Shown: piece by piece, positions 32,332 to 38,049 of the stretch
Position numbering within the stretch: position 1 is the first letter of the stretch
How the letters are laid out: each line of letters starts with the position of its first letter
Assembly: GCA_012519845.1 (NCBI GenBank)
Contig: JAAYPK010000096.1
Location: forward strand, 1-40,663
Reading direction: 5' to 3'
DNA from: Clostridiales bacterium
Lineage (GTDB): Bacteria; Bacillota; Clostridia; Clostridiales; Clostridiaceae
DNA: 40,663 nt
The notes under the pieces: model-generated
Databases searched by the model: none
What the model saw: the letters and a program-made list of their open reading frames with translations, nothing else
What the model was told of the DNA's origin: nothing
Program-made: the position numbers and the translations under genes

Positions 32332-32364
32332 TAGTTACAAGGAAGTATTTAAGGAGGAATGAAT

Positions 32365-32928
32365 ATGTCATTAATAAACAAAAAAATATCAGAATTTAAA
32401 GTAAACGCATACCAAGATGGTGAGTTTACAGAAGTAACACAAGATTCATTAAAAGGACATTGGTCAGTAGTAGTATTTTATCCAGCAGATTTTACATTTG
32501 TTTGTCCTACAGAATTAGGTGATTTAGCAGATAAATATGAAGAGTTTAAGAAAATTGGATGCGAAGTATATTCAGTTTCTACAGATACGCATTTTGTACA
32601 TAAAGCATGGGCAGATGCATCAGAAACAATTGCAAAAATTAAATATCCAATGTTAGGTGATCCAACTGGAGTTTTAGCTAGAGAATTTGAAGTAATGATT
32701 GAAGACGAAGGATTAGCATTAAGAGGATCATTCGTAATTAATCCAGAAGGTGAAATCAAAGCTTATGAAATTCACGATAACGGAATTGGAAGAAATTCAG
32801 ATGAGTTATTAAGAAAGGTTCAAGCTGCTCAATTTGTTGCAGAACATGGAGATCAAGTTTGTCCAGCTAAATGGCAACCAGGTGGAGATACATTAAGTCC
32901 AAGTTTAGACTTAATTGGTAAACTATAA
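32365..32928 (+). CDS. ahpC: Peroxiredoxin AhpC
   Basis: AhpC reduces hydrogen peroxide and organic hydroperoxides. The 187-residue typical 2-Cys peroxiredoxin has peroxidatic Cys47 in FTFVCPTELGDLAD and resolving Cys166 in QVCPAKW, matching canonical numbering. ATG 32365 is chosen because AAGGAGG (32351-32357) lies 7 bases upstream; the ATG at 32359 is only one base from that site. A hairpin separates it from the flavoprotein reductase gene that should recycle it. Confidence 0.96.
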   Translation: MSLINKKISEFKVNAYQDGEFTEVTQDSLKGHWSVVVFYPADFTFVCPTELGDLADKYEEFKKIGCEVYSVSTDTHFVHKAWADASETIAKIKYPMLGDPTGVLAREFEVMIEDEGLALRGSFVINPEGEIKAYEIHDNGIGRNSDELLRKVQAAQFVAEHGDQVCPAKWQPGGDTLSPSLDLIGKL

Positions 32929-32951
32929 TATAGAAATTTATTTTAAAATTT

Positions 32952-33025
32952 AAGGGGCTGTTGTAAAATTATTAATGGGATGTGATAAATGATTTTCTCG
33001 TTTAACAACATCCCCTTTCTTTTAT
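32952..33025 (+). terminator. Hairpin between ahpC and reductase gene
   Basis: Arms 32952-32964 and 33005-33017 pair over 13 positions with one mismatch and enclose a loop of about 40 bases; a T-rich tail follows. It is probably a partial terminator that lowers expression of the downstream gene relative to ahpC. Confidence 0.55.
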
Positions 33026-33046
33026 TAAATTTTAATGGAGGTTAGT

Positions 33047-34708
33047 ATGAGTAAAATATATGATGTAATAATTATAGGAGGAGGGCCAGCAGGATTATCC
33101 TCAGGAATATATGCAGGTAGAGCTAAGCTAAAAACATTAATTATAGATAAAGATGAATTGGGTGGGCAAGTAAATAAAACTTACGAAATTTCTAATTATC
33201 CTGGAGCAAGAAATAGTAATGGACCAAAATTAATGAAGGATATGATTGATCAGGCTTCTGATTTTGGAGTAGAATTCTTAAGAAGTGAAGTTAAAGGTTT
33301 TAACTTTGATAATGATGTTAAAGTAATAAAAACATCTCAAGGAGAATTACAGTCAAGATCAGTAATAATTGCTACTGGTGCATCACCAAGAAAACTTGGC
33401 TTTAAAGGTGAAAAGGAATTTACAGGAAGAGGAGTAGCGTATTGTTCAACTTGCGATGGACAGTTCTTTGAGGGATTACAAGTTTTTGTAATTGGAGCTG
33501 GATTTGCGGCTGCTGAAGAAGCCATGTTTTTAACTAAATATGCCAGAAAAGTAACAGTTATAGCAAGAGAGCCTGAGTTTACTTGTGCAAAATCTATTGC
33601 AGATAAAGTATTAAGCCATCCCAAAGTTGAAGTTAAATTTAATACTGAAGTAGTAGAGGTTTCTGGAAAAGAGGCTTTAACCTATGCAAAATTTATAAAT
33701 AATAAAACCGGTGAAACTTTTGAATACAATGTAGAAGGAAATGATAAGCTATTTGGGGTATTTGTTTTTGTAGGATATGAACCTAAAAGTGAATTATTTA
33801 AAGATGTATTAGAAATAGATAAATATGGATATATAAAAACTAACGACAATATGAAAACTAAAATAGATGGAGTTTTTGTTGCAGGAGATGTAAGACCAAA
33901 GGAATTAAGACAAATTGTAACAGCAGTTTCGGATGGAGCAGTAGCAGCTGTATCTGCAGAAAGATATGTTATTAGTGAAAAAGAAAGACTAGGAATAAAG
34001 GAGGAAGAAGTCCAAACTAAAAAAGAACCTGTAAAAGAAGTTAAAAATTCATCTTTAGGAGATATACATAGATATAGTAACCTATTAAATGATGATTTAA
34101 GACTTCAATTAAGAGGTATATTTGATAAACTTGATAAAAATGTAACTATAGCCACTTTTATTGATGAAAATAATGAAAAATCAATAGAACTTAAAAATCT
34201 AGTTTTAGATATTGAAGAGTTAGGAGAAAAAATTAATACAAAAGTATATAAAAAAGGTGATAATAAAGATTTAGAAAATACTTATGGTATTGATAAAACT
34301 CCTGCTATTGTTATATTAGATGATAATAATGAATATACTGGGGTCAAGTTTTATGGAGTACCAGGAGGACACGAATTAAACTCTTTTGTTCTTGCTCTTT
34401 ACAATGTTGGAAGTAAAGGACAACCTATTTCTGATGAAGTTAAAAATCAAATACAAAATATTAATAAAAAAGTAAACTTAAAAGTATGTATAGCATTATC
34501 TTGTCATTTATGTCCTGATGTAGTTGTAGCTGCTCAAAGAATGGCAATTTTAAATAAAAATATAGAAGCTGAAATGATAGATATATCATTATACAAAGAT
34601 GTAAAAGATAAATATAATATTATGAGTGTTCCTGCTTTAATTGTTAATGATGAAGAAATTAAATTTGGTCATAAGAAAATAGAGGACATTTTAGAAATAA
34701 TAAATTGA
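33047..34708 (+). CDS. AhpF-type peroxiredoxin reductase with permuted domain order
   Basis: This 553-residue flavoprotein probably passes electrons from NAD(P)H to AhpC. Residues 1-310 form a thioredoxin reductase module: FAD site IIIGGGPAGLSSGIYAGRA, redox Cys133-x2-Cys136 (YCSTCDGQ), NAD(P) site VIGAGFAAAEEA and second FAD motif GVFVAGDVR. Residues 340-553 resemble the tandem thioredoxin-fold module of AhpF, with a single CxxC at Cys486-Cys489 (SCHLCPD). In classical AhpF that module is N-terminal, so the order is reversed here. ATG 33047 is chosen, as GGAGG (33037-33041) lies upstream of it and inside the alternative frame from 33035. Adjacent to ahpC. Confidence 0.88.
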   Translation: MSKIYDVIIIGGGPAGLSSGIYAGRAKLKTLIIDKDELGGQVNKTYEISNYPGARNSNGPKLMKDMIDQASDFGVEFLRSEVKGFNFDNDVKVIKTSQGELQSRSVIIATGASPRKLGFKGEKEFTGRGVAYCSTCDGQFFEGLQVFVIGAGFAAAEEAMFLTKYARKVTVIAREPEFTCAKSIADKVLSHPKVEVKFNTEVVEVSGKEALTYAKFINNKTGETFEYNVEGNDKLFGVFVFVGYEPKSELFKDVLEIDKYGYIKTNDNMKTKIDGVFVAGDVRPKELRQIVTAVSDGAVAAVSAERYVISEKERLGIKEEEVQTKKEPVKEVKNSSLGDIHRYSNLLNDDLRLQLRGIFDKLDKNVTIATFIDENNEKSIELKNLVLDIEELGEKINTKVYKKGDNKDLENTYGIDKTPAIVILDDNNEYTGVKFYGVPGGHELNSFVLALYNVGSKGQPISDEVKNQIQNINKKVNLKVCIALSCHLCPDVVVAAQRMAILNKNIEAEMIDISLYKDVKDKYNIMSVPALIVNDEEIKFGHKKIEDILEIIN

Positions 34709-34733
34709 CATTTTATATATTTATATGTAAAAT
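34705..34733 (+). promoter_or_regulatory. Sigma-A promoter of the T-box leader
   Basis: Consensus TTGACA (34705-34710), 17-base spacer, TAAAAT (34728-34733). The -35 box overlaps the stop codon of the upstream reductase gene. Confidence 0.75.
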
Positions 34734-34746
34734 AAACATGATATGT

Positions 34747-34931
34747 TTGCTATGAAGAGGAAGAGTAATAAATAAGGTTTTAAAGAGAGGTTAGGTTTGC
34801 TGTAACTAACTAAACTGATATTATGAAGGGAGCCTTGGAGCATCTTTAAGTTGAAAAGTAGGGCATATGCCAAGAAGGGTGGAACCGCGGATTAAATTTC
34901 GTCCCTTTGTTTTGGCAGTGCCTTTTTATTT
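34747..34931 (+). promoter_or_regulatory. T-box riboswitch, apparently glycine tRNA-specific
   Basis: The RNA shows the T-box core AGGGTGGAACCGCGG (34876-34890) with partner CGTCCCT (34900-34906). Stem I has a base of TGCT with AGCA (34748-34751, 34839-34842), a kink-turn-like GA/GG element, AGTA (34764-34767) on the 5' side of the specifier loop and GAA (34825-34827) on the 3' side. The trinucleotide after GAA is GGG (34828-34830); a shift by one gives GGA, so both read glycine. The base after TGG in the bulge is A, which fits a tRNA with U73, as bacterial glycine tRNA has. A lower stem (34862-34873 with 34912-34922) leads into a T-rich tract. Downstream are an ACT protein and a UPF0210 protein, not a synthetase. 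Confidence 0.88.
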
Positions 34932-34962
34932 TATTTTATTTTAAATTATAGGAGTGGGTAAG

Positions 34963-35232
34963 ATGAAGTCAATTTTAACAGTTATCGGTAAAGATCAAGT
35001 AGGAATTATTGCAGGAATTAGTAGCGAACTTGGTAAATTTAATATAAACATTTTAAATGTTAATCAAACAATTATGGATGGCTATTTCACAATGATTATG
35101 ATGCTTGATTTAGAAAAGGCAAATGCATCCTTTGATGAAATTAAAAAAGGCCTTTCAGCAAAAGGCGAAGAATTAAAAGTTACAGTAAAGATTCAAAGAT
35201 CTGAAATATTTGATTCAATGCATTCACTATAA
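34963..35232 (+). CDS. ACT-domain protein (UPF0237 family)
   Basis: This 89-residue cytoplasmic protein is a single ACT domain ([49 protein letters not shown]). ACT domains usually bind amino acids, glycine and serine often among them. ATG 34963 is chosen because AGGAG (34950-34954) lies 8 bases upstream; the GTG at 34954 overlaps that site. It is the first gene after the T-box and is 14 bases from the UPF0210 gene. UPF0237 and UPF0210 genes are neighbours in many Firmicutes. A role as amino acid sensor for its partner is inferred. Confidence 0.9.
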
Positions 35233-35246
35233 GAAGGAGGAGAAAT

Positions 35247-36614
35247 ATGAGTACTAATATTACAGCTCAAAATATACTAGAAACAATAAAAATGATAGAA
35301 GAAGAAAAGCTTGATATAAGAACAATTACAATGGGAATTTCTCTTCTAGATTGTATTGATCCTGATGGTGACAAGGCAAGAGAAAAAATATATAATAAAA
35401 TAATGTCTTCAGCAAGGGATCTAGTTAAAGTTGGTAAAGAAATTGAAAATGAATTTGGAATTCCAATAGTAAATAAAAGAGTTTCTGTAACTCCTATTTC
35501 AATTATAGGTGGTGCTACAGACGAAGATAATTATGTGAAATTTGCACAAGTACTTGATAAATGTGCGGATGAACTTGGAATTGATTTTATTGGGGGATTT
35601 TCAGCTTTAGTACAAAAAGGATGCACAAAAGGAGATAAAATACTAATAAAATCTATACCTGAAGCCTTAGCAAAAACTAATAAAGTTTGTTCTTCTGTAA
35701 ATGTAGGTTCATCTAAAAGTGGAATTAATATGAATGCAGTAAGAGATATGGGAATTATTATGAAAGAAACTGCTGAACTCACAAAAGATCAGAAAGGTTT
35801 TGGATGTGCAAAATTAGTTGTCTTCGCAAATGCAGTTGAAGATAACCCATTTATGGCAGGAGCTTTCCATGGAGTTGGAGAAGCAGATAGAATAATAAAT
35901 GTAGGTGTTAGTGGACCAGGGGTTGTACAAAGAGCAATAGAAAAAGTTCGAGGAGAATCTTTTGACGTGTTAGCAGAAACTATTAAAAAGACTGCTTTCA
36001 AGGTTACAAGAATGGGTGAATTAGTAGCTCAAGAAGCTTCAAAAAGATTAGGAGTTCCTTTTGGAATTATTGACTTGTCATTAGCTCCAACACCTGCCAT
36101 TGGAGACTCTGTTGCACATATATTAGAAGAAATGGGACTTGAAACTGTAGGAACACACGGAACAACAGCTGCCCTAGCTATGTTAAATGATGCTGTTAAA
36201 AAAGGTGGAGTTATGGCATGTAGTCATGTTGGAGGATTAAGTGGTGCATTTATTCCAGTTTCTGAAGACTCAGGAATGATTGATGCTGTAATAAATGGTT
36301 CATTGAATCTAGAAAAGCTTGAAGCCATGACTTGTGTATGTTCTGTAGGACTTGATATGATTGCAGTACCAGGAGATACATCAGCTTCAACATTATCAGC
36401 TATGATTGCTGATGAAGCAGCAATAGGAGTGATTAATAATAAAACAACAGCTGTTAGAATAATTCCAGCACCTGGCTGCAAAGTTGGTGATATGGTTGAA
36501 TTTGGAGGCCTTCTTGGAAGAGCGCCTGTTATGGCTGTTAATAAGAATTCTTCAGAAGCATTTATTGCAAGAGGGGGAAGAATTCCAGCACCAATACATT
36601 CCTTTAAAAACTAG
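35247..36614 (+). CDS. UPF0210 / DUF711 (PFL-like) family protein
   Basis: This 455-residue cytoplasmic protein is full-length for its family. Recognisable blocks are [18 protein letters not shown] near the start, [95 protein letters not shown], and [40 protein letters not shown]711 proteins have a fold related to pyruvate formate-lyase, but no activity is established to my knowledge, and no glycyl-radical loop is seen here. AAGGAGG precedes the start. Its transcript is led by a T-box, which suggests a link to glycine supply or use. Confidence 0.9.
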
Positions 36615-36636: not shown

Positions 36637-36676
36637 GTTGCTACAGAATTTTTGAATTTTGCTAGCAACTTTTTTA
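36637..36676 (+). terminator. Terminator after UPF0210 gene
   Basis: A 14-bp stem with one G-U (36637-36650 with 36655-36669) ends in TTTTTT. Confidence 0.85.
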
Positions 36677-36774: not shown

Positions 36775-38049
36775 ATGAAAGATAAGAATATTAAATTTCC
36801 TCCAATTGGAATGCGAATTACTAAATCAGCTATAGGTGTTTTTTTAGGATTTGTGATTTATTATTTAAGAGGTGGCCAAGGAACACCATTTTATACAGCT
36901 TTATCTGTGCTTTGGTGTATGCAACCTTATGTTAATGATACAAAAGAAAAAGCCTTTCAACGAACTATAGGTACATTTATAGGAGCTTTTTACGGAACAA
37001 TAATGATATTATTAGAATTTTATTTATTTACCTTTGATAATGAATTAATTAGGTTTTTATTTATTTCAATTTTAATAATACCAGTTATTTATACCACTAT
37101 TGTAATTAATAAAAAAAATGCATCATATTTTTCATGTGTAGTATTTTTAAGTATTGTTGTAATGCACATTAATGATAGTAATCCTTATATTTTCATACTT
37201 AATAGAGTACTTGATACAATGATAGGTATAGGTTTATCTTTTGCTATTAATCATGTAAAGTTACCTGTAAAAAAACAAAAGAATATACTATTTGTTTCAG
37301 GAATAGATGATTTGTTTTTAAATTCACAAAACAAATTTTCTTCTTATAGTAAAATTCAACTAAATAGAATTATTGATGATGGTGCAAATTTTACAATTGC
37401 AACAATGAGGCCTCCTGCTGCATTACTTCCAGCAATTCAAGGTATCAGGATGAAATTACCAGTGGTGGCTATGGATGGAGCTATTGTTTATGATATTAAA
37501 CAAAATAGATATTTAAAAATAAACGAAATGTCTAATAAAGAAGCAAATATATTTTTAGAATTTTTACATGAAAGAGGATTTAATGCATTTACAAATGTAG
37601 TTGTTCAAGATTCAGTTTTAATTTATTACGGAGAATTTCAGAATAAAGCTGAAGAAACTATTTTTAATGAATTAAGATCATCTCCTTATAGAAATTATTT
37701 AAAACAACCTTTGCCTAAAGAATATGGAGCAGTTTATATAATGATAATAGATGTAAGAGACAGAATAGAAATGTTATATAAAGATCTTCAAGAAGCAGGT
37801 TATACAAAAAACTACAAAATATTAAAATATGATTCTGATGATTATCCAAATTATATGTATATAAAGATTTATCATAAAAGTGCTGATAAAAAATTAATGG
37901 TTAATTACATAAAAGAAATCTCTAATACTGAAAAAATCATAACTTTTGGTGAAATGGATGGAATTAGTGATGAATATATAAAAGGAAAAGATTCAAATGA
38001 AATGGTAAGAAAGTTCAAGAAACTTTATGAACCATTTATATGGAAATGA
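36775..38049 (+). CDS. Aromatic acid exporter/FUSC-like membrane domain fused to a degenerate HAD domain
   Basis: The 424-residue protein joins two parts. Residues 12-162 hold about five membrane helices with PIGMRITKSAIGVFLGF, GTPFYTALSVLWCMQP and the positively charged AFQRTIGTFIGA, like ArAE/FUSC transport domains. Residues 170-424 follow the layout of Cof-type HAD phosphatases: ILFVSGIDDLFLN (motif I), ANFTIATMRPPA (motif II), LPVVAMDGAIVYD (cap entry), DKKLMVNYI (Lys of motif III) and FGEMDGISDEYI (motif IV). In motif I the nucleophile Asp position is Gly176, and the motif II TGR reads TMR, so phosphatase activity is doubtful. The ribosome site AAAGG is far from the ATG. Role: perhaps a ligand-sensing transporter; unknown. 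Confidence 0.78.
   Translation: MKDKNIKFPPIGMRITKSAIGVFLGFVIYYLRGGQGTPFYTALSVLWCMQPYVNDTKEKAFQRTIGTFIGAFYGTIMILLEFYLFTFDNELIRFLFISILIIPVIYTTIVINKKNASYFSCVVFLSIVVMHINDSNPYIFILNRVLDTMIGIGLSFAINHVKLPVKKQKNILFVSGIDDLFLNSQNKFSSYSKIQLNRIIDDGANFTIATMRPPAALLPAIQGIRMKLPVVAMDGAIVYDIKQNRYLKINEMSNKEANIFLEFLHERGFNAFTNVVVQDSVLIYYGEFQNKAEETIFNELRSSPYRNYLKQPLPKEYGAVYIMIIDVRDRIEMLYKDLQEAGYTKNYKILKYDSDDYPNYMYIKIYHKSADKKLMVNYIKEISNTEKIITFGEMDGISDEYIKGKDSNEMVRKFKKLYEPFIWK

Follow-up and report, generated by a model that had tools for sequence, protein, structure and literature searches.

Which amino acid controls the expression of a two-gene unit for an ACT-domain protein and a DUF711 protein, and what does this control say about the role of the two proteins? 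The question is raised by a 40,663-nucleotide stretch of DNA from a Clostridiales bacterium (called the window here, at its full length), where both genes follow a T-box leader. DUF711 proteins are widespread and conserved and a structure has been solved; for such a family, a control element that specifies one amino acid is a concrete handle on function. The portions of the literature found under the names of DUF711 give no function for it, and searches for COG2848 or COG3830 returned nothing related. The explanation that we favour, and regard as probable, is a glycine-specific T-box attenuating transcription of the ACT-DUF711 unit, with an ACT protein that would bind glycine or serine and a DUF711 protein that would act in glycine, serine or one-carbon supply. 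By tying the unit to glycine supply, the T-box makes its role testable.

That the leader is a T-box, as a preliminary description of this locus had proposed, is borne out by the RF00230 match at 34743-34909 on the forward strand (107.1 bits, gathering score 93, E 7e-23), the sole gathering-level Rfam match in the window. Our own covariance model, R1, yields 174.7 bits at 34743-34911, a score that is circular because the window sequence is in its training set. The leader (34743-34909, +) is of the short form without Stem II and Stem IIA/B, as indicated by both models and by covariation. It follows a putative sigma-70-type promoter (34705-34733, +; TTGACA, 17 nt, TAAAAT) with 11 of 12 consensus matches in a consensus scan; a TTGACA precedes the leader, or the first leader, in all 11 loci inspected, and is joined by the 17-nt spacing and TAAAAT in eight of them. 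Upstream, the stretch 32359-34708, which adjoins this promoter, carries ahpC and then the gene for a reductase resembling AhpF, whose end is of thioredoxin type (TIGR03143). Within the leader, the specifier codon GGA (glycine) lies at 34829-34831 (+; columns 100-102 of alignment A1), and the antiterminator bulge UGGA at 34880-34883 (+), inside AAGGGTGGAACCGCG at 34875-34889, is predicted to pair with a tRNA ending in UCCA. Computed folding places an alternative hairpin, a terminator with a T-rich tract behind it, at 34860-34924 (+). This hairpin and the antiterminator have the strand CGUCCC in common and are mutually exclusive in the computed folds, with minimum free energies of -27.5 kcal/mol for the 93-nt segment with the terminator versus -9.4 for the 52-nt antiterminator segment.

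Both genes behind the leader encode members of the families to which the preliminary description had assigned them, UPF0237 and UPF0210, with scores above the curated cut-offs. The ACT gene (34963-35232, +) starts with ATG at 34963, has AGGAG at 34950 and encodes an 89-residue UPF0237 protein (PRK00194; NF001220, E 9.5e-35; 118.8 bits versus a cut-off of 74), a relative of PDB 1zpv, which we take to be the pneumococcal neighbour SP0238. The second gene (35247-36614, +) encodes a DUF711/UPF0210 protein of 455 residues that matches PRK05313 (E 4.9e-237; 786.8 versus 440 bits) and PF05167 (E 2.3e-200; 666.1 versus 25 bits), and whose only confident PDB match is 2ha9 (E 5.5e-213). Read from the sequence, a stem GTTGCTA...TAGCAAC followed by six T at 36637-36675 (+; segment minimum free energy -17.9 kcal/mol) is the likely operon terminator; the consensus terminator scan, which takes loops of 3-8 only, does not list this hairpin. 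Farther downstream, 36775-38049 encodes a single protein with an aromatic-acid-exporter/FUSC membrane part and then a HAD hydrolase domain.

The amino acid named by the leader was read from aligned columns, as a regular-expression reading was misplaced or out of register in eight of 15 leaders. Among the 13 aligned leaders found at ACT-DUF711 in 11 genomes, the specifier columns hold GGA in 12 and GGC in one, so that no non-glycine specifier appears in the alignment. Two leaders added later (G440 and G444), whose contigs stop before DUF711, both carry GGA. The specifier is thus a glycine codon in all 15 leaders from 13 genomes (14 GGA, one GGC), and the bulge is UGGA in every one. The preliminary description had left the specifier as GGG or GGA. 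GGA stood; the GGG register, one base early, gives GGG in seven of the 13 leaders and non-glycine codons in six (TGG in five, AGG in one), and the register one base late gives glycine in none. The GGA register also lies one purine ahead of covarying helix 2 in every aligned leader. The bulge base A had likewise been taken to suit U73 and to point to glycine; the base is right, but alone it narrows the choice only to glycine, cysteine and threonine, the sole tRNAs with UCCA ends (U73) among those that RF00005 and ARAGORN identified in the window genome and in the complete genome of a relative, G408. Because no tRNA-Gly gene was found among the 35 tRNA matches in the window's draft assembly, tRNA-Gly was taken from G408, in which the UCC and GCC species both end in UCCA. 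As read from the alignment, specifier and bulge together match glycine alone.

Elsewhere in the draft genome of the window, 25 T-box matches have E <= 0.001 and 21 of these exceed the cut-off; for 19 of the 25, the hand-read specifier agrees with the downstream gene as recognised by eye, under the names that we take these genes to have. A T-box at L012 (G000:C115:55210-55477, -) precedes a protein that resembles MetRS but is divergent (201.9 bits, cut-off 587; 482 residues visible, cut by the end of the locus), and its hand-read specifier looks like CAA (Gln) with the bulge UGGU, which is odd for a MetRS relative. At L025 (G000:C50:31781-31907, -), a short leader that resembles a T-box but has no normal Stem I precedes a 139-residue protein that has no NCBIfam match at 1e-10. 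Judged by its sequence, the leader at ACT-DUF711 is a glycine T-box, that is, an ordinary switch with an uncommon target, an uncharacterised gene pair.

Covariation was assessed on an alignment of the 13 leaders built on sequence, with the structure taken from the window's Rfam match. In the named structure 96.6% of cells pair, and changes on both sides affect 13 of the 32 pairs and 40 of the cells, versus 6.7 and 12.7 in shuffles, while slid versions of the structure all score far lower. Together with the kept glycine specifier, this covariation argues for selection on the leader where it is present. Detection depended on the method: ten of the 15 leaders at ACT pass the Rfam gathering score, and the five below it are those of L217, L263 and L276 together with the leading copy in both tandem pairs. 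For this reason a motif search was run beside R1. Scores of R1 are circular for the 13 leaders in its training set, but it found those of G440 and G444 (L388 and L406) independently, with 153.5 and 152.5 bits, and both pass Rfam as well. In the scan of the genus genomes it was run with stricter filters and 48 candidates scored per genome, so that weak leaders may escape.

The gene pair is far more widely distributed than its leader. In samples of the phylum, the family and the genus, DUF711 occurs in 234 of 398, 72 of 116 and 58 of 59 genomes, respectively, and it is also present in five of 14 control genomes (Corynebacterium glutamicum, Lactococcus lactis and three archaea). Of the 247 loci collected, 57 come from genomes of the genus and 41 from elsewhere in the family. 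Another 69 represent the remainder of the phylum, taken as the best-scoring rather than at random, and the last 80 are named loci, of which some seem to belong to species already represented. An ACT gene lies directly 5' of DUF711 in 246 of the 247. Intact leaders at ACT-DUF711 were detected by R1 in eight of 57 genus, three of 41 family, none of 69 wider-phylum and two of 80 named loci, the latter two apparently of species counted already; at six loci with fewer than 250 bases 5' of ACT a leader could not be seen. The 69 wider-phylum loci likewise carry no gathering-level Rfam T-box. Across the 59 genus genomes, R1 gave 66 matches above 115 bits, the next-best reaching 100.5, and all 66 stand before one of two genes, 56 before the glycyl-tRNA synthetase gene (glyS) and ten before ACT; behind these ten ACT genes DUF711 follows in eight cases and the contig ends in two. 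An association of T-boxes with UPF0237-UPF0210 pairs, which the preliminary description had suggested surveying, therefore holds in ten of 59 genus genomes and is no general rule, with none at the 69 loci of the wider phylum. Leaders in decay were also met, at L232 (41 bits) and at L234 (58.9 bits, with altered specifier and bulge), and by eye all that L280 retains is a hairpin resembling a terminator, while L218 retains no part of a leader. These counts suggest that this control is a trait of a single clostridial lineage, parts of which are losing it, and, with most DUF711 loci lacking a leader, the link to glycine may be lineage-specific. Riboswitches in some loci were considered as leaders and rejected: the TPP/THF riboswitches (L064, L065 and L057) are on the other strand from DUF711, and those for FMN (L135) and fluoride (L150) lie elsewhere in their loci.

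In a tree of the leaders, those at glyS in the genus group together (98/98) and the genus ACT leaders fall outside that group, which argues that they are not fresh copies of glyS leaders. The leaders of a second genus, two species of which carry tandem leaders at ACT-DUF711 (one pair reading GGC, then GGA), and the leader of L292 group with those at glyS, with weaker support (86/96). On a quick DUF711 tree, built without bootstrap, the presence of a leader or remnant requires at least five changes, which is compatible with one gain followed by losses or with several gains. Among the glyS-type leaders themselves, L326 (G406:C49:14181) has the T-box and bulge and, by eye, seemingly no Stem I, and at L329 and L330 (G458 and G527) tandem glycine T-boxes precede a protein resembling glycyl-tRNA synthetase; in the section consulted of a 2025 survey, tandem T-boxes among synthetases are given only for thrS (PMC12452182).

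The proteins offer evidence of their own. When the ACT profile is compared with PDB, 1zpv and an unnamed protein are followed by GcvR, SerB, RelA and PurU. Weak matches to the GcvR model occur in 39 of 50 members and to the formyltetrahydrofolate deformylase model in 45 of 50, those of the window protein to the GcvR and PurU families being far under the model cut-offs; aspartate kinase is also among the relatives, in up to four of 50 members. Glycine is the signal for GcvR and PurU, and serine that for the ACT domain of SerB. This kinship, which is independent of the leader, fits glycine or serine sensing, although not uniquely. DUF711 is highly conserved, and its near-invariant polar residues, for example C36, C148, C365, D199, N200, E340, D341 and D370, include three cysteines and many acids. 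Glycyl radical enzymes carry the motif R-V/I/L-x-G-F/W/Y; neither this nor the looser R-x-x-G-F/W/Y matches anywhere in the 455 DUF711 residues. According to the sections consulted of the report on 2ha9 (SP0239), this structure has the ten-stranded barrel also seen in pyruvate formate-lyase and ribonucleotide reductase, no function was assigned to it and no candidate radical glycine is reported (PMC4390871). DUF711 is not associated with glyA (12 of 18 genomes without glyA have it, by a manual count, versus 222 of 380 with glyA, p 0.63). Among the nearest open reading frames of the 80 named loci (78 upstream, 76 downstream), no Pfam family exceeds five of 78 or six of 76, and no common neighbour points to glycine; this and the result for glyA count against a link with glycine.

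In the mechanism that we propose, tRNA-Gly, when largely uncharged, would pair through its anticodon with the specifier GGA of Stem I and through its free 3' end, UCCA, with the UGGA bulge, holding the antiterminator so that RNA polymerase could continue into the ACT-DUF711 operon; with charged tRNA-Gly the long terminator hairpin would form and transcription stop. The antitermination step is modelled on the known mechanism of the T-box family. Induction under a shortage of charged tRNA-Gly, as the preliminary description had expected, is a straightforward prediction that glycine specifier and covariation back. Since glycyl-tRNA synthetase has the same kind of leader, ACT-DUF711 would be expected to be induced together with it on glycine shortage. 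The ACT protein may then be a glycine- or serine-binding partner of DUF711. The latter, which probably has the pyruvate formate-lyase/ribonucleotide reductase barrel fold and shows no evident radical glycine, may perform or regulate a step of glycine, serine or one-carbon supply. A more specific scheme, in which the pair would be a glycine-gated, non-radical relative of these enzymes that makes glycine or a one-carbon equivalent, bypassing serine hydroxymethyltransferase, with ACT as the glycine sensor and the T-box as a second, tRNA-based sensor in some clostridia, is speculative and quite unlikely to be correct in this form.

How far the leader informs on gene function depends on how it came to this place. 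It could be a real glycine T-box of glyS type captured by chance, lineage-specific, partly neutral and now being lost, with little bearing on what the genes do. The patchy occurrence in the genus and the decayed copies and remnants described above are what such a capture would leave behind; selection on the leader where it is present, its tandem copies in the second genus, the position of the genus ACT leaders outside the glyS group and an ACT kinship that owes nothing to the T-box all speak against it, and we consider it unlikely. Still further from our expectation, and highly improbable, is a leader that senses another amino acid (tryptophan through TGG, arginine or glutamate) in a shifted register. 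Neighbouring registers of some leaders do contain TGG, AGG, GAG, GAA or GCG, but only the GGA register gives a single amino acid in all 13 aligned leaders, and the constant distance to helix 2 and the fit of UGGA to U73 speak for it too.

Even with glycine as the signal, ACT-DUF711 might be a regulatory complex answering to serine or one-carbon status instead of an enzyme that raises glycine, a less likely possibility: SerB and PurU stand beside GcvR among the profile relatives of ACT, and DUF711 has no radical-glycine motif. The near-invariant polar residues of DUF711 look enzymatic, which weighs against such a complex without being decisive. Glycine-specific attenuation of a pair connected with glycine, serine or one-carbon supply thus remains our preferred reading.

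The literature searched contains no prior report of a T-box at UPF0210; the main T-box surveys lay outside that search, and an earlier mention is possible. In the excerpts consulted, a C. difficile review places a T-box before the ACT-domain gene CD1564, and Wels 2008 assigns a glycine T-box to EF2480 of E. faecalis, a 'Gly related hypothetical'. The glycine riboswitch (RF00504) also exerts glycine-related control, but it binds glycine itself, as stated in the part consulted of the 2025 survey (PMC12452182). Across 133 of the 247 DUF711 loci, including all 69 of the wider phylum, Rfam gathering scores gave no glycine riboswitch; in the window genome, two adjacent matches (L371, G000:C7:6401-6564) precede an AgcS-type amino acid carrier. 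With GcvR, SerB and PurU the window protein shares an ACT domain detectable by profile; their ACT domains, however, occur in duplicate or in fusion with another domain, whereas that of the window is a free 89-residue protein beside DUF711. The closest counterpart of the gene pair is the UPF0237-UPF0210 pair of S. pneumoniae (ACT, PDB 1zpv; SP0239, PDB 2ha9), with the same two protein families and an alignment to 2ha9 that runs nearly end to end. The closest counterparts of the leader are the glycine T-boxes of glyQS and glyS, which are equally short and without Stem II, with a GGA or GGC specifier, a UGGA bulge and read-out through a terminator; the window genome's own glyS leader has GGA and UGGA and reaches 144 bits under the model trained on ACT leaders. 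The window leader differs from them in its place in the tree and in its target, which is not an aminoacyl-tRNA synthetase but ACT-DUF711.
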